Of a DNA stretch of 51,937 nt, positions 15,354 to 23,014 are shown one piece after another (positions within the stretch are counted from its first letter, which is position 1; the number at the start of each line of letters is the position of its first letter). A program made the position numbers and the translations under genes. Source of the DNA: an uncultured Lachnospiraceae bacterium (GTDB taxonomy: Bacteria; Bacillota; Clostridia; Lachnospirales; Lachnospiraceae); contig CANOCU010000025.1 of NCBI GenBank assembly GCA_947564645.1, positions 1 through 51,937 of the forward strand, read 5' to 3'. A model generated the notes under the pieces. The model saw only the letters and a list, made by a program, of their open reading frames with translations, searched no databases and had not been told where the DNA came from.

Positions 15354-16475
15354 CTACTTCTTCCTCCCAAAACTTACCAGCAGTCCCCGATAATGCAGGC
15401 ATCGCAGATCCGCTTTGTTCTCCGTCACGTACTTCTGTATCTTCCGCTGCCTGCGGCAGTAGCTCTCCGCCTCTTTCCGTTCCAGGCCATGGTTCATAAA
15501 ACCGCGCACAATCTCTTCTTCTGCCTCCGCGCTGCTGCTCTTATCCCATCCTTTTTCCTGTAAAAGGCATTCCGCGAGTTCTTCATGATCCTCCCGCTCC
15601 GGGCAGATCAGAGACACTCTGTCGTTCATCCGCACGTCCACATCCACAAGACCTTCCTCCTGCATCATCAGCGGAAGCCGCATCCCGACGGCGTAATCCC
15701 GTCCCTGGCACTGCCGCTCTTTCTCCCACATCTTGCGAAAGCCCAGGCGGTCACACAGTTCCGTATAGGCAAGCCCCTCCAGATACAGGCCGTCGCTCTC
15801 CAGTTCCCTGTTCACATCGATCGCGATCACCAGGCCGCCCGGCTTCGTCTGTGCGATCATCTTCTGCAAAAACCCCCGGGGATCGTTCACATGCCGCATG
15901 GCACAATGGCTGATCGTCACATCATAATGCCTCCGGAACGTGTGCGTCGGAAAATCATCACAGATAAATTCCGTCTGCCATTTCTCCTGTTCCAGAAGCT
16001 TCTTTGCCTCCCGCAGCAGATTGGCACTGAAATCAATGCCCGTATAAACGCTGCCCTCCGGCAGAAAAGGCATCAGCATCTTTCCCATATAGCCAAACCC
16101 GCAGCCGCAGTCCAACACCTCCACCGGCCTGTCGATCTGCCACACCTGCTCCACCAGAAACCGCAGATAATCCGCATTCCACATGGCCCGCCTGCTGGCC
16201 TTCAGATAATCCAGCCTGTCTTCCCAGTATTCCCTCTCTCCGCTTCTGGCCGGTATATACGCTTCCCCCGCAAGCGGCACAAGCCCCAGAAGCGCATCCA
16301 CCGTCACCCGGAAAAACTTCGCGATATCCGGCAGCAGGGCAATATCTGGCATAGAGACATTATTTTCCCACTTGCTGACCGTCTGCACCGAAACGCCTAT
16401 CGCATCCGCCAGCTCCTTCTGACTCATCTGACCCGCTTTTCTCAGGTCATAGATCCTAATTCTGATCGCCGCCAT
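15354..16475 (-). CDS. XRE HTH domain fused to an SAM-dependent methyltransferase
   Basis: 373 aa. Residues about 5-62 are a Cro/CI-type helix-turn-helix (MSQKELADAIGVSVQTVSKW). A class I methyltransferase follows from about residue 80: motif I is VLDCGCGFGYMG, then a GIDFS acidic motif. The rest (about 220-373) is a helical tail with SYCRRQRKIQKY. DNA-binding and methyl transfer joined in one chain suggest a regulator that modifies or senses a small molecule, but no substrate can be read from sequence. Its start overlaps the GNAT stop by 20 bp, so the two are co-expressed. Confidence 0.85.
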   Translation of the reverse strand: MAAIRIRIYDLRKAGQMSQKELADAIGVSVQTVSKWENNVSMPDIALLPDIAKFFRVTVDALLGLVPLAGEAYIPARSGEREYWEDRLDYLKASRRAMWNADYLRFLVEQVWQIDRPVEVLDCGCGFGYMGKMLMPFLPEGSVYTGIDFSANLLREAKKLLEQEKWQTEFICDDFPTHTFRRHYDVTISHCAMRHVNDPRGFLQKMIAQTKPGGLVIAIDVNRELESDGLYLEGLAYTELCDRLGFRKMWEKERQCQGRDYAVGMRLPLMMQEEGLVDVDVRMNDRVSLICPEREDHEELAECLLQEKGWDKSSSAEAEEEIVRGFMNHGLERKEAESYCRRQRKIQKYVTENKADLRCLHYRGLLVSFGRKK

Positions 16476-17145
16476 ACACGCCTTCCCCGCTTTCCTGCAT
16501 TTCTCCGGCTTCCTGCACTTTCCCGCTTTCCTGCATTTTTCCGTTTGCTTGCATTTTCCCGTTTCCTTGCATTTTTCCGTTTTCCTGCACTTTCCCCCGC
16601 TGCTTCTCCCATTCGCTTCGAAGCAGCCGGTATTCCAGCCTCGTCTTCATCCTGCCATCGTGCCATTCCCAATCCACATGCTCCGCCTCTTTAATCAGGC
16701 CGCACCTTAGCATCACCTGCTCGGAACGCGCATTTTCCGCAAAGCATCCGGTCGTCACCCGGTAAACCCCATCCTCTTCAAACGCATAGTCCAGGACTCT
16801 GCGAAAGGCCTCCGTCACATAACCGTTATGCCAGAACTTCGGATATGTAAAATACCCGGCATGTACGATCTTGCCCACCGGCGTCCTGGCCTTCACGGTA
16901 TACCCGATGCTTCCCACCTGTTCCCGGGTACTTTTCAATTCCATATAGAGAAAGTAGAAAGTCCTGTCCTCCCGCCCGGCATCCTCCAGCACCTGCGTCA
17001 GTTCCTCATCCGCCTCCTGCCTGGAAGTAAACCTGATATCCTGCAGATAATACATCGTCTGCGCATCCGTTTTCAGCCTGTAGTAATCTTCCCTGTCGCG
17101 CTCCTCATAGTCCCGCAGGATCAGACGTTCCGTCTCCAAATACAT
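16456..17145 (-). CDS. GNAT N-acetyltransferase with a repeat tail
   Basis: 229 aa. The RimJ/RimL-type GNAT domain spans residues 1-180 (LETERLILRDYEERD; GSIGYTVKA; YVTEAFRRVLDYAFE; RVTTGCFAENARSEQVML). The last 45 residues are hexapeptide repeats of the form GKMQxN, which are not part of any GNAT fold. ATG 17145 has GGGGGAG upstream; 38 more in-frame residues upstream are discarded. Targets of this clade include ribosomal-protein N-termini, antibiotics and small amines; none can be chosen here. Confidence 0.85.
   Translation of the reverse strand: MYLETERLILRDYEERDREDYYRLKTDAQTMYYLQDIRFTSRQEADEELTQVLEDAGREDRTFYFLYMELKSTREQVGSIGYTVKARTPVGKIVHAGYFTYPKFWHNGYVTEAFRRVLDYAFEEDGVYRVTTGCFAENARSEQVMLRCGLIKEAEHVDWEWHDGRMKTRLEYRLLRSEWEKQRGKVQENGKMQGNGKMQANGKMQESGKVQEAGEMQESGEGVYGGDQN
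16490..16600. repeat. 18-bp tandem repeat, six copies, in the GNAT 3' end
   Basis: TGCA cores at 16496, 16514, 16532, 16550, 16568 and 16586 give an exact 18-bp period. Being a multiple of three, it adds or removes whole hexapeptides. It ends about 15 bp before the methyltransferase start. Confidence 0.9.
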
Positions 17146-17190
17146 ACCCTGTCTCCCCCTTCCGTATCCTGATCTTATGCTCCTACCTTC

Positions 17191-17236
17191 AGTGAATAAA
17201 GGAATACGCGTTCCTTTGTTCACTAAAGGTATTGTA
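17191..17236 (-). promoter_or_regulatory. Long palindrome at the start of the GNAT transcript
   Basis: AGTGAATAAAGGAA (17191-17204) pairs with TTCCTTTGTTCACT (17211-17224): 14 pairs with one G-T. A -10 TACAAT (17231-17236) lies seven bases upstream on the minus strand, so the palindrome would sit at the transcription start, as an operator or a 5' hairpin. The rest of the 338-bp gap (17225-17439) holds nothing else I can name. Confidence 0.5.
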
Positions 17237-17439
17237 TCAGGAAAGCGTCCTGCCACCAATCACCCGGATGGTGATTTTATTCTACCGACAGGCAAGCGGA
17301 TTCCCGTGCCCGCGGCAGCCTCGATAGTAATATGGTAGCATTTTCTTAGAAAAACAAAAAGTATGAAAAGAAAGTTCCGGTGTTCACCATGATTTACACC
17401 TTGTTTTAAGAAAAGGAATAAGAAATTACAAATAAACTA

Positions 17440-17906: not shown

Positions 17907-18247
17907 CATTGTTTATCGCAGCAGTCATATATATTTTGTTATGTCGTTTACTATATGTCATTTACTATACTTCCTATTCCCATTGTATGATCTCCGTTTC
18001 TACCGTTCATGCAATGGGATTTGGATTTTCAGGGAAATAAAATACAGGATATTCTGCCGAAATCGATAAAATGTGAATACATTTACTTGAAATCAAATAC
18101 TTTTTCCAAGCACTACTCTAATATCCACTTTAACACATCGCAAAATAAAAGTCTAGTAATATTTTCTTTTTTTCCTTACAATAAATATGATAAACGACAT
18201 AACAAATTTCCGTTTCCGTCTCCTGCAGGAGCCATATACGGAAGCTT
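17907..18247. other. AT-rich gap without recognised genes
   Basis: About 340 bp, clearly more AT-rich than its surroundings. The open frame beginning at 18187 lacks a ribosome site and runs into helD out of frame. I see no RNA gene or repeat here; it may be remains of the element that brought the toxin-antitoxin pair. Confidence 0.5.
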
Positions 18248-18275
18248 TTGCAGAGACAAAAACGCAATTTATAAT
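18248..18275 (+). promoter_or_regulatory. Promoter of the HelD-like gene
   Basis: -35 TTGCAG (18248-18253), 16-base spacer, -10 TATAAT (18270-18275). Transcription would start about 37 bp before the gene's ATG. Confidence 0.6.
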
Positions 18276-18319: not shown

Positions 18320-21300
18320 ATGAGTCACAAACCAAATCAGACGCCCCCTTCCACCTCCAGGCAGGCCGAAGAGGCCTACCTGCAGCAGACGCTGGCCATT
18401 GTGAAGGACAATCTCTCCCATTATGGCAGAGAAGTTTCGCGTATGCAGGAAGATATCGACGAAATGCTGGCCCATTACCATGACAATGACGTGGAGGTCC
18501 TCACCATCCTGAACAACACGGTGACCCTCCACGACCATATGAAGCGGGCTCTGCTGCGCAATGAGAAGGCGCGAAACAAACCCTACTTCGGCAGGATCAT
18601 TTTCCGTGACGAATCCCTTGAGAAAACAGAATCCCTCTACATTGGCAAGGGCGGCATCTCCAAAGATTCCACCCACCAGATCGTCATCGACTGGCGCGCA
18701 CCGGTGGCAGGCGTCTACTATGAGAATGGCCTGGGAAAATGCAGTTACAAAGCCCCCGGTGAAGCCGAGATCGCCATCGACCTGCAGCTGAAACGCACCT
18801 ATGAGATCGAATCGGGAAAGCTGCTCGACTACTTCGACAGCGAAGTGATCGCCAACGACGACCTTCTCACCAAGTATCTGGCCAAAAACAAACAGGCGGT
18901 CTTAAGTGAGATCGTCGCCACCATCCAGAAAGAACAGAATGAGATCATCCGCAGATCCCCTTATCACAACATCATCGTACAGGGCGTGGCAGGCTCCGGC
19001 AAGACCACCGTGGCCATGCACCGGATCTCTTACATTCTCTATAACTATGCGGAACGTTTCCGCCCCGACGACTTCTACATCGTGGGCAGCAACCGCATCC
19101 TGCTCGACTATATCACGGGAGTCCTGCCGGATCTGGATGTCTACGGCGTGCGCCAGATGACCATGGAACAGCTTTTCGTGCGGCTCCTGTATGAGGACTG
19201 GGACAACAGGAAATACAGCATCCAGGAAGTGAGCCGTACCGCAGGCAGCCGCGTCAAGGGCAGCGCCGCCTGGTTCCACGCACTGGAAGACTACTGCCGT
19301 CATCTGGAGGAAAGTACCATCTCCTGCAAGTCCGTCTATCTGAACCCGAAACAGTTCGTGGAAGGGCTCCGGGACGGCAAATTCGGCATATTCGACACGA
19401 CCGAAGGGCGAAGCGATCCCCGCGACCTTATCTGCCTTCTCGAGCGGGAAGCCGTGGAGCGCTACCTGAAACAGAATCCCGCCGTCTCCATCCAGAGTAA
19501 GATCAACATGCTAAACGATCGACTGCGCAATAAGATCAAGGAAGAATTTCTGGGCAAGGGCATTAAGTACACCGATCCGGAGAAAAAGGCGATCCTCAAA
19601 GCCTACCGTCAGCATTACGGCCCCAAGATCTGGAAAAAGCCGATCTATGATCTTTACAGAGACTTTCTTGCAAAACAGAATGCCCGGGGAGCGGATGTCG
19701 CCATCCCGGAAACTGCCTTCGACGTCTACGACCTGGCCGCACTGGCTTACCTTTACAAGAGAGTCAAGGAGACGGAAGTCATCAGCGAAGCGCACCATAT
19801 CGTGATCGACGAAGCGCAGGATTTCGGCATGATGGCCTACTATACCCTGCATTACTGCATCCGCGGCTGTACCTATACGGTGATGGGAGACGTCTCCCAG
19901 AATATCCACTTCGGTTACGGCTTAAACGACTGGGAAGCCCTGCGCAGCCTGCTATTGCCGGATCCCGCCGATACCTTCGGCCTTCTGAAGAAAAGTTATC
20001 GTAATACGGTGGAGATCTCCGACTTTGCCACCCGTATCCTGCAACATGGACGTTTCTTCGTCTACCCGGTAGAACCGATCCTCCGCCACGGCAATGCCGT
20101 ACAGACCAAAAAGCTGCCGGACCGGAAGTCTCTGATCGAGTCAGCCGCCGATACCTGCAAAGGCTGGCTTGCAAACGACTGGAACACCATCGCCGTGATC
20201 TGCCGCGACCTCGCTGCGGCCGCCAAAGCGGCCAGGGAACTGTCCGCTTATCTGGACAATATCGAGAGTGATCCGGAGAAAGCAGTTTTCGGGAACGGCG
20301 TCATGGTGCTGCCGGTAGACTACACCAAAGGACTGGAATTTGACGCGGTACTGATCCTTGATCCCACGCGGGAAGACTATCCCGTGGAAGACGGCCATGC
20401 CAAGCTGCTCTACGTGGCAGCAACCCGCGCCCTGCATGAACTGTGCGTGCTCCACACCGGAGACCTGACCGGGCTGATCACGGATCCCGTGCCGGAACCT
20501 ATGGACCATGCGACCGCACATCCTGCAAGCGCCGTTGCCGATGACCGCACCGACAGAGTCATGCCGGATACCGCAAGAAGCAGCCACGCTCCATCCCCGG
20601 AGCAGTCAAAACCCGTCCGGCCATTAAAGAAAAAAGTTTCCATCGTGCAAAACAACCTGCTGCCGCACCATTCCCTCTCATCCGAAGCAGAGGCCCCCTC
20701 TGTCCGAAACGCAGGCGATGCACGGCAATCTGCCAAAGCAGCTGCCACGCGGGAAAGCGGCCACGCCAAAGCAGCGGCCACGCGGGAAAGCGGCTCTGCC
20801 AGACCAACACTTGCACGAGAAAGCAGCTCCGCCAAACCTGCACCTGCGCGGGAAAGCGGCTCCGCCAGACCGGAATTTGGCGACATGCCCGCCACGGAGA
20901 TCCTGCGTCCCGCGGGTCATGGCAAGATCGACCTGGCCGTACGTTGGAGTGCAAAACAGCAGGACGGCCTCTATCTTCACAGCCGTTACGGCATCCTGCG
21001 CCTGAGTCCCGTAGGCAGCGCCATTATAAGAGTCACTTTTGCAAAAGGCGGCCAGATCGCAGACTGCTTCCATCCCGGCATCGCCGTCCGCAGGACGGAA
21101 CGCACCTGGATGTACAAGGAATCAGCCTCAACAGTAGACCTGATGACCGACGAACTGCTCGTGCAGACAGATAAGACAACCGGCGCCATCCGCTTTATGA
21201 CGCGGGATAAGAAACTCCTTTTTGCAGAGCGCAGCAAGGAATGCCGGCAACTCGAAGCTGCTCTGAATGGCCGTATGAAAGTCTGGCTCTACCCCGAATG

Positions 21301-21658
21301 GCAGAAGCAGGAAACCGTCTACGCCATGGGCGCCGGAGAGACCAAGGGCATGAACATCCGCAAAACGGCCCGGTATATCTCTCACCGAGGTCAGACAGCA
21401 GCCGATTTACCCTGTGGTACAGCGTCTGATCAGGATGCACGGGACTCAGCTTCTTCTGCCTCTTTGCCTTTCCTGCTCTCCGAAAACGGCTACGGCATCG
21501 TTCTGGCCGCCGACAGCCCGGTAATCTGTTGTGACCTGCCCACTTATGGTACCTACCTGTATGCGGAAAACGAACTGCAGATGGATTACTATTTCATCGC
21601 CGGGAAGCGGCCAAATACGATCCTGAACGCCTGCGCTTACCTGTGCGGTAAATTCTGA
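18320..21658 (+). CDS. helD: HelD-type UvrD-like helicase fused to a GH31 N-domain-like module
   Basis: 1112 aa. Residues about 15-720 are a full HelD/superfamily-1 motor: a coiled N-terminal arm, the IDWRAPVAGVYY motif, Walker A GVAGSGKTT (222-230), Walker B VIDEAQD (about 495), GDVSQNI, KKSYRNT and the motif VI region YVAATRALHEL. HelD frees stalled RNA polymerase from DNA. Residues about 720-865 are a low-complexity linker with 11-aa repeats. Residues about 870-1112 look like the beta-sandwich that precedes the barrel in GH31 glycosidases (YGILRLSP, VYAMGAGETKGMN, LPFLLSENGYGI, MDYYFIAGKRP) but no catalytic barrel follows. AGGAGG precedes ATG 18320. Confidence 0.85.
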   Translation: MSHKPNQTPPSTSRQAEEAYLQQTLAIVKDNLSHYGREVSRMQEDIDEMLAHYHDNDVEVLTILNNTVTLHDHMKRALLRNEKARNKPYFGRIIFRDESLEKTESLYIGKGGISKDSTHQIVIDWRAPVAGVYYENGLGKCSYKAPGEAEIAIDLQLKRTYEIESGKLLDYFDSEVIANDDLLTKYLAKNKQAVLSEIVATIQKEQNEIIRRSPYHNIIVQGVAGSGKTTVAMHRISYILYNYAERFRPDDFYIVGSNRILLDYITGVLPDLDVYGVRQMTMEQLFVRLLYEDWDNRKYSIQEVSRTAGSRVKGSAAWFHALEDYCRHLEESTISCKSVYLNPKQFVEGLRDGKFGIFDTTEGRSDPRDLICLLEREAVERYLKQNPAVSIQSKINMLNDRLRNKIKEEFLGKGIKYTDPEKKAILKAYRQHYGPKIWKKPIYDLYRDFLAKQNARGADVAIPETAFDVYDLAALAYLYKRVKETEVISEAHHIVIDEAQDFGMMAYYTLHYCIRGCTYTVMGDVSQNIHFGYGLNDWEALRSLLLPDPADTFGLLKKSYRNTVEISDFATRILQHGRFFVYPVEPILRHGNAVQTKKLPDRKSLIESAADTCKGWLANDWNTIAVICRDLAAAAKAARELSAYLDNIESDPEKAVFGNGVMVLPVDYTKGLEFDAVLILDPTREDYPVEDGHAKLLYVAATRALHELCVLHTGDLTGLITDPVPEPMDHATAHPASAVADDRTDRVMPDTARSSHAPSPEQSKPVRPLKKKVSIVQNNLLPHHSLSSEAEAPSVRNAGDARQSAKAAATRESGHAKAAATRESGSARPTLARESSSAKPAPARESGSARPEFGDMPATEILRPAGHGKIDLAVRWSAKQQDGLYLHSRYGILRLSPVGSAIIRVTFAKGGQIADCFHPGIAVRRTERTWMYKESASTVDLMTDELLVQTDKTTGAIRFMTRDKKLLFAERSKECRQLEAALNGRMKVWLYPEWQKQETVYAMGAGETKGMNIRKTARYISHRGQTAADLPCGTASDQDARDSASSASLPFLLSENGYGIVLAADSPVICCDLPTYGTYLYAENELQMDYYFIAGKRPNTILNACAYLCGKF
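20735..20880 (+). repeat. 33-bp in-frame tandem repeat in the HelD linker
   Basis: The GGGAAAG/GAGAAAG core recurs at 20751, 20784, 20817 and 20850, exactly 33 bp apart, encoding 11-residue units of the type AKxAxxRESGS. Copies drift in the first half of the unit, so the array is not brand new. Confidence 0.85.
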
Positions 21659-21679: not shown

Positions 21680-21706
21680 GTCAGGCTGTTATTCCGACAG
21701 CCTGAC
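21680..21706 (-). terminator. Terminator hairpin containing a stop codon
   Basis: GTCAGGCTGT (21680-21689) and ACAGCCTGAC (21697-21706) form ten perfect pairs with a seven-base loop. On the minus strand a TTTT run follows. The stop codon of the membrane-fusion-type gene (21689-21691) lies in the loop and upper stem. Convergent helD ends 22 bp away. Confidence 0.7.
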
Positions 21707-23014
21707 GATTCCTCCGTTCTCGATTGCCTTCGTAGAGGAGATGATGATCCGGTCCTCCTTATCCAAAGGCGCATTATCCAGTGCAACAAAATAATCATTC
21801 TGATCCGCGACCCGCACGCTGACCTGTTCCACATAGTATTCCATGCCAAGAATCCCTTCTCTCTCCCGTACCACATAGACATGACTGCGTCCATCCACCG
21901 TCGTCACCGCGGCGGGCGTCACGCAGCAGGGCTGCTTCTCTCCCGATTCCGCATGGCTCATGACGCCTGACATACCGGGCACCCCCGTCCCTTCCGGCAG
22001 GTTGATATAGACCTCATAACTGCCCGGCGCCGAAGCGCTCTCCGCCAGATAATCGATGGTCGCTTCCTTTTCCCTGCTGCTGCCGTCCAGTTTCAGAGAC
22101 ACCGTATCATTCAGGCCCACATACTTCTTCTGTTCCTGGGTGAGCATCGTCTTGAACTGACAGGGCACGGAATCATCGGCCAGCAGCAACGCGGCTGCAT
22201 CCGACGTCCTGCCGCCCGTAGTCACGAAGATATCCGTGACCAGTCCCCCGCGGCCTGCCCGGATCTCCCCGTTCGCATTCTTCACTTCCTGATACAGCGC
22301 CAGATCGGCCCGCAGATCGGCAAGCTCTAATTGATTTACCTGTAAGGAGGCATCTGCATTCTCCGGCGCCAGGATGTCCTCCACCTTCCGGCCTGCGTCC
22401 TTCATCGTATTTTCTCTCTGCCATTTGGCATCCGCTTCCGCATAAGCCGCCTGCTGCAGCGCATCCTTCAAGGCGTCATCCACCTCGCCGCCCAGGCCGT
22501 CATGCTGTTCTCCCAAATCGTCCTCAGCCTGACTGTAAGCTTCCGCCGCCCTCCCTACAAGCGTATCCTCATATCGTGCCAATGCATCATAATCCTCTCT
22601 GGCCCGCTGCTCTTCCAACGCTTTCTTCTGTCTGGCCAGTTCCTCGTTGGCCAGGATCGTATCAACCTGCGTCTGGACCCTGGCGATGGCATTCTGCTTC
22701 TCCTCCATGATAGAAGCCAGGTCCTGCAGATCGATGGTAAAAAGCACATCCCCCTCCTCCACCTGGTCGCCCACCTGCACCATAAGCTTCTCCACGCGCA
22801 GCCCGCCAAGCGCCGTAACCGGATTCTTCTCCCCTGCCACCACGATGCCGTCCACTTTCACGACATGCTCTATATATTTGCTCTCGATGGATTCCGTCGA
22901 AACGATCGGAAGCCTCGATGCATAGATGCTCTTCGAGATTATGGTACACAGCCACATGGCCGCCAGAAATACAAGGAATCCCGTCACGATTTTTTTCTTT
23001 CTCTTATCCTCCAA
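21689..23014 (-). CDS. HlyD/membrane-fusion-type secreted adaptor protein
   Basis: 441 aa. One N-terminal transmembrane helix (about 9-30), a biotinyl-lipoyl-like half-motif (GGLRVEKLMVQVGDQVEEGDVLF), a long coiled coil (about 105-240) and beta-barrel segments after it: the plan of HlyD/MacA-type adaptors. The start is TTG 23014, with AGGAGG eight bases upstream; no ATG fits. It is the last gene after a sugar-type binding protein and two CUT1 permeases (25-bp gap), an unusual partner for an importer. It may link the transporter to the cell wall or belong to a separate exporter. Confidence 0.75.
   Translation of the reverse strand: MEDKRKKKIVTGFLVFLAAMWLCTIISKSIYASRLPIVSTESIESKYIEHVVKVDGIVVAGEKNPVTALGGLRVEKLMVQVGDQVEEGDVLFTIDLQDLASIMEEKQNAIARVQTQVDTILANEELARQKKALEEQRAREDYDALARYEDTLVGRAAEAYSQAEDDLGEQHDGLGGEVDDALKDALQQAAYAEADAKWQRENTMKDAGRKVEDILAPENADASLQVNQLELADLRADLALYQEVKNANGEIRAGRGGLVTDIFVTTGGRTSDAAALLLADDSVPCQFKTMLTQEQKKYVGLNDTVSLKLDGSSREKEATIDYLAESASAPGSYEVYINLPEGTGVPGMSGVMSHAESGEKQPCCVTPAAVTTVDGRSHVYVVREREGILGMEYYVEQVSVRVADQNDYFVALDNAPLDKEDRIIISSTKAIENGGIVRLSE

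Follow-up and report, generated by a model that had tools for sequence, protein, structure and literature searches.

A HelD-like motor joined to a GH31 N-terminal domain without its barrel in Lachnospiraceae

The gene at positions 18320-21658 (+) of contig CANOCU010000025.1 (assembly GCA_947564645.1, an uncultured Lachnospiraceae bacterium), the whole 51,937 nucleotides of which were analysed and are hereafter called the window, raises the question of why an RNA polymerase factor of the HelD type should carry at its C-terminus a domain of glycosidase descent. To our knowledge, the means by which HelD is brought to its target or switched has yet to be established. The gene is an intact open reading frame (ORF) of 1112 residues, with the ATG at 18320, the stop codon at 21656-21658 and AGGAGG a few bases upstream of the ATG on the same strand, in a source genome of 4.15 Mb (140 contigs, 91% complete). 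It encodes, in this order, a HelD motor, a linker and a beta-rich tail resembling the N-terminal domain of glycoside hydrolase family 31 (GH31). Both the HelD motor and the GH31 N-domain are already known; what appears to be new is their union in a HelD that has gained one further domain, probably put to another use.

The motor occupies residues 1-725. It matched the NCBIfam family HelD_BACSU at E 6.5e-100 (335 bits) and the solved Bacillus subtilis HelD (6wvk) at E 2e-72, with query residues 64-287 and 471-722 aligned, which supports the claim of a complete HelD-like motor made in a reading of this DNA from its letters alone (hereafter the sequence-only reading). W125, K228 and DEAQD (497-501) were invariant in all 55 aligned rows; according to the 6wvk alignment and the accessible part of PMC7749167, W125 and K228 correspond to B. 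subtilis W137 and K239. Judged by its sequence, the motor is a class I-like HelD, and it is probably working, given that the ATPase residues do not vary across the 55 proteins of the alignment. The same alignment, combined with the domain map in that part of PMC7749167, delimits its parts, all on the forward strand. The putative secondary channel arm (18320-18895, residues ~1-192, equivalent to B. subtilis HelD 1-203) is aligned from residue 64 onwards and is followed by the first part of superfamily 1 (SF1) domain 1A (18896-19159, residues ~193-280), which contains the Walker A motif GVAGSGKT with K228. The putative clamp arm region (19160-19786, residues ~281-489) is placed by its position between the two 1A parts, being nearly all unaligned to 6wvk. 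The second part of 1A (residues ~490-561, with DEAQD) and the domain 2A head (562-725) together span 19787-20494, where PF13538 and PF13361 were matched as well. The lengths and order of the parts fit, and acidic residues (D45, D47, E48, D55 and D57) lie near the expected arm tip, but the alignment to 6wvk covers neither the first 63 residues nor the bulk of the clamp arm.

The tail (20876-21655, +) comprises residues 853-1112. The sequence-only reading had ended the motor near residue 720 and placed the extra domain in the last ~240 residues; its boundaries are corrected here to motor 1-725, linker 726-852 and tail 853-1112. Searched alone, the window tail found faint best matches (the PRK10658 alpha-xylosidase, E 5.4e-4; 5jou in the Protein Data Bank (PDB), E 0.027) and no Pfam family, PF13802 included. 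A family profile built from 78 tails of nearer relatives matched 5jou, the alpha-xylosidase BoGH31A, at E 6.9e-16. Of the ten PDB sequences that the profile reached at E<=1e-3, eight bear the name alpha-xylosidase, alpha-glucosidase or GH31, and we take the Lmo2446 protein and the cycloalternan-forming enzyme, which make up the rest, to be GH31 too. PF13802, the GH31 N-terminal galactose-mutarotase-like domain, was matched by 57 of the 78 tails at E<=0.1 (best 4.4e-9), and the GH31 enzyme of the own genome (contig C17), to which Pfam assigns PF01055, PF21365 and PF13802, matched the tail profile at E 1.2e-44. An AlphaFold2 model of the tail (predicted local distance difference test score 89.6, predicted template modelling score 0.88) consists of 18 strands and one C-terminal helix. 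The protein closes with ..YLCGK., a stretch whose counterpart in the alignment is the ..RxLTGK. that GH31 enzymes carry immediately ahead of LPKWAFG, where the barrel starts; the stop codon follows directly after the tail, and the TIM barrel family PF01055, seen in three GH31 controls, had no match in the 1112-residue protein. On this alignment and profile evidence the tail and the N-terminal beta-sandwich of GH31 enzymes are homologous, and the tail ends where the barrel would begin, as the sequence-only reading had supposed; because the barrel is absent, it is not a GH31-type enzyme. That reading had named a lack of structural similarity to GH31 N-domains as a ground for refutation; at the level of sequence profiles the similarity is clear.

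A comparison of the 78 tails with 14 GH31 N-domains revealed what has been retained and what has been lost. Common to both are G891, R894, P897, R904, E970, E998, Y1019, S1054, D1072, D1089, Y1091, F1092, G1095 and L1108. The residues of the GLGQ..EG and hQ.N stretches, which in GH31 enzymes presumably belong to the side facing the active site, are kept overall in 3-15% of the tails; the common GH31 residue at Q1005, E1008, Q1022 and N1024 occurs in 3%, 14%, 6% and 10% of the tails, respectively, versus 86-100% of the GH31 domains. About 30 residues of the GH31 comparators (32 columns) are absent from the tails. At the place of the hQ.N loop the window tail carries an insert of ~25 residues (1022-1046; 21383-21457, +), most columns of which, in the alignment of the 78 tails, are empty in 86-96% of them, the insert being present in the window and a few relatives. 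At 21 positions, on the other hand, a residue is conserved in at least 85% of the tails and in less than 25% of the GH31 domains: D871, L872, W876, D882, G883, Y885, R889, Y890, S900, T906, Y932, E945, R976, W989, K996, A1017, R1018, S1021, L1049, A1063 and C1071.

The ratio of nonsynonymous to synonymous substitution rates (dN/dS), determined for 12 hand-picked pairs, in some of which dS exceeded 1 and the ratio is rough, was 0.03-0.18 for the tail and 0.05-0.12 for the motor, and the tail is thus under purifying selection comparable to that on the motor. For the linker (20495-20875, +; residues 726-852, 127 residues in the window and 76-186 among the 78 members) it was 0.28-0.83 in eight pairs and saturated in the other four. 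Tandem repeats of 33 nucleotides were noticed within the linker at 20732-20871. The loss of enzyme-typical residues, together with a constraint on the tail nearly as strict as that on the motor, suggests that the tail took on a different role. A decaying glycosidase was ruled out by the low dN/dS and by the position of the ORF end near that of the query in 79 closed loci.

The distribution of the fused architecture was examined in a scan of 84,980 species genomes, which yielded 331 relatives; the counts use the best 80 of these, and two of the six scan peptides lie in the tail, which biases the scan toward fused matches. Among these 80, 79 are single closed fused ORFs, whose ends lie no more than 12 residues from that of the query, and one (L110) leaves its contig inside the tail. 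The occurrence of the same architecture in other genomes, which the sequence-only reading had proposed to look for, is thereby established, and an assembly artefact was ruled out, since these closed ORFs come from separate records. In a sample of 61 genomes the tail was matched in 17: in 13 of the same genus (own included) it lies in an open frame of 1059-1149 residues, in one more (G027) in a 241-residue frame near a contig end, and in the remaining three in GH31-length frames only. An even draw of 150 Lachnospiraceae genomes contained a HelD match at E<=1e-20 in 57 and a HelD-type tail in 13; eleven of these tails are part of a fused ORF, that of G098 is broken up between the ends of two contigs, and in G187 there are two overlapping ORFs. 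In the latter genome, which is 96% complete, a HelD frame of 750 residues and a tail frame of 323 residues overlap in different reading frames (locus L170; also locus L131, 42-1274 and 1162-2133), representing a frameshift, a split gene or a sequencing error. An order sample of 245 genomes had 32 with a tail match at E<=1e-12, among them six fused ORFs, all in Lachnospiraceae, and nine genomes of other families with GH31-length frames (784-833 residues; eight of the nine were read). Thirteen of 299 genomes in a phylum sample matched the tail, that of the window being the only fused one; two short frames there (364 and 413 residues) continue into a GH31 barrel. No fused ORF was found outside Lachnospiraceae in the order and phylum samples, which give little coverage of rare or highly divergent examples.

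A search of the own genome gave no second strong HelD match; of two weaker ones, that on contig C95 (E 5.8e-16) reads by eye, in the part examined, as a PcrA-like helicase, and the further one lies on contig C33 (E 2.3e-9). Among the 13 genomes of the family in which a HelD-type tail occurs, the own genome included, eight lacked a second HelD match at E<=1e-20 and five had one; hence in those eight the core HelD function seems to fall to the fused protein.

Phylogenetic analysis was performed for both halves of the protein. In a tree of 48 HelD cores, 31 fused proteins (the family draw supplied 12, the window together with the scan 19; two of the rows are cut by contig or locus ends, and a third is the split G187) stood on one side of a single branch with support 100/99, apart from 17 unfused ones, and nearest to them were three unfused proteins of Lachnospiraceae. 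The N-domain tree had 57 rows, and its 23 tails likewise fell on one side of one branch (support 100/100), apart from 34 GH31 rows, most of which were named by frame length and barrel motif and three by Pfam; the deeper forks, on which the identity of the donor GH31 group depends, are weak. With the fused HelDs forming one group and the tails another, one fusion event in Lachnospiraceae suffices and would be the simplest account. The unfused relatives align only up to query residues 708-722 in 16 of 17 cases and to 575 in one; as all of them stop by residue 722 and the fused ones form one group, the tail being a family-wide HelD domain, the possibility against which the sequence-only reading had warned, was ruled out. 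A HelD with one extra domain, apparently gained once, and with unfused sisters as natural controls makes the question of HelD targeting testable.

The explanation that we consider best, with about an even chance of being correct, is a HelD recycling motor that bears a tethered, non-catalytic docking or regulatory tail. The sequences show that in Lachnospiraceae a GH31 N-domain became attached, most simply once, to a HelD-type recycling ATPase via a long variable linker. By analogy with B. subtilis HelD, the motor would pry open stalled RNA polymerase through its secondary-channel and clamp arms, and ATP use would let the motor go of the polymerase. The tail, tethered so as to reach a protein partner (possibly the polymerase, some other transcription factor or the motor of the same protein), would by this contact target or gate recycling, as the Tudor-like domain of PcrA/UvrD brings that helicase to RNA polymerase. 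A docking or regulatory role is favoured since PcrA is built in the same way, its SF1 motor being followed by a rapidly diverging tether and then a conserved domain.

Several observations weigh against this explanation. The 335 bits of the protein fall below the 419-bit equivalog cut-off of HelD_BACSU; an unfused relative, L161, falls below it likewise (352 of 419 bits), and the shortfall therefore does not come from the tail alone. The dN/dS of the tail exceeds that of the motor in seven of the 12 pairs, and tail identity is below motor identity across the family. The distant fused proteins L126-L134, outside the 78, vary at several tail-specific positions, such as W876 and C1071, with motifs like ARYIS still recognisable in most of them, and the residues conserved in the tails alone could also be there to let the domain fold in the absence of a barrel. 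Finally, of the 57 family genomes in which HelD was matched, 44 lack a HelD-type tail, so that HelD works without it there.

Other roles for the tail appear less probable. It is unlikely, in our estimation, that the GH31 N-domain is a ligand- or partner-sensing gate which, in these gut bacteria, ties the free polymerase pool to a metabolic or cell-wall signal, i.e., that HelD is here controlled by a ligand. We likewise regard as unlikely a nucleic-acid module that holds DNA or RNA near the motor and aids displacement or loading: the basic and aromatic residues conserved in the tails only (R889, R976, K996, R1018, W876 and W989) and the mean net charge of +4.2 over the 78 tails are consistent with it, but this charge is modest, amounting to +3 in the window tail (32 K+R, 29 D+E), and we know of no nucleic-acid binding by GH31 N-domains. 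It is rather doubtful that the tail serves as a carbohydrate sensor, binding a sugar, an oligosaccharide or a cell-wall fragment and altering HelD activity, such that recycling follows carbohydrate supply. The descent of the tail from a glycosidase domain and the presence of D1072 and of the D.YF..G stretch in tails and GH31 enzymes alike speak for such a sensor, as would what we take by eye to be a sugar-type ABC transporter nearby in the window. Against it are the low retention of the GLGQ..EG and hQ.N residues and the gene neighbourhood, which is not widely conserved; moreover, the GH31 N-domain is not known to bind sugars on its own. The suggestion of the sequence-only reading that a sugar-binding-like domain could tie transcription to a carbohydrate is not supported.

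It is improbable that the tail stands in for the delta subunit, supplying the help that this subunit gives to B. subtilis HelD, in Clostridia that mostly lack delta. The accessible text of PMC8655204 describes helD without rpoE in Clostridia, with two exceptions, that of PMC7749165 reports that delta aids DNA release, and the own genome, at its 91% completeness, has no match to HARE-HTH (PF05066), which 3 of 14 controls matched, B. subtilis among them; but near unfused HelD relatives occur in the same family, so that HelD can evidently be retained without a tail. To a passive remnant of a chance fusion without function of its own, with which the lower identity of the tail than of the motor would agree, we give hardly any credence in view of the similar dN/dS of the two parts, the 79 uninterrupted ORFs among the best 80 relatives and the tail's own set of conserved residues.

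The surroundings of the gene do not name its function. No widely conserved neighbourhood was found: the most frequent neighbour family was present in 19 of 81 loci, in varying places, and a function named by a conserved neighbour was ruled out on this ground. Presumed histidine-biosynthesis genes upstream are shared by up to about a dozen of the 81 loci, and a presumed MoxR-like gene with those following it downstream by 8-11, this kind of setting recurring in about 6-12 loci overall; the window has neither. Carriage on mobile elements was also ruled out: there was no plasmid match at E<=1e-5, and the single match in the phage collection (locus L214, MT836747.1, 982-4215; labelled Bacteriophage sp., from human faeces) lies on an unverified scaffold that holds a 1077-residue fused HelD along with ABC-transporter-like genes and is probably bacterial. 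Upstream of the gene, a sequence scan found a sigma-70-like promoter candidate, TTTGCA-17-TATAAT (18247-18275, +), weak on its own, as four promoter-like sites were found versus a mean of 2.6 in shuffled sequence. By eye, the gene at 15354-16475 (-) appears to join an XRE-type helix-turn-helix to an S-adenosylmethionine methyltransferase, and that at 16456-17259 (-) to encode a GNAT-like acetyltransferase with a repetitive GKMQxxGKMQ tail. On the reverse strand, 21680-21706 forms a hairpin with a T-rich run after it, just before the end of the convergent gene 21689-23014; sites of this kind are no more numerous than chance would give.

No report of a HelD joined to a GH31 N-domain was found in the open-access papers searched, as judged partly by titles and the starts of abstracts. 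The Clostridia HelDs for which the accessible part of the HelD survey gives lengths have 704-745 residues, and its main text makes no mention of carbohydrate, fusion, extension, C-terminal extension or 1100 (PMC8655204). According to the available portion of another study, HelR relatives in Actinobacteria help against rifampicin (PMC10719064). With B. subtilis HelD (class I; 6wvk/6zca) the protein shares part of the N-terminal arm, the W of the DWRAP stretch, Walker A, DEAQD and the 2A head, which align; the B. subtilis protein, as far as its published description could be consulted, has 774 residues and ends with domain 2A, whereas here a 127-residue linker and a GH31 N-domain follow. The layout is shared with PcrA/UvrD, in which, in the accessible part of PMC5397179, an SF1 motor and a poorly conserved spacer precede a conserved beta-sheet C-terminal domain. 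That Tudor-like domain of PcrA, for which binding to RNA polymerase has been tested and found (PMC5397179, same part), belongs to another family and has 52 residues, in contrast to the ~240 residues here, for which binding is proposed. The tail itself is a homolog of the N-domain (PF13802) of GH31 enzymes such as BoGH31A (5jou) and the YicI-type alpha-xylosidases, with shared residues, but it differs from those enzymes in having neither the TIM barrel nor the C-terminal domains, in the missing loop residues and in the shortening described above, which makes it an accessory domain of a glycosidase that is kept, presumably, for a role away from any enzyme.

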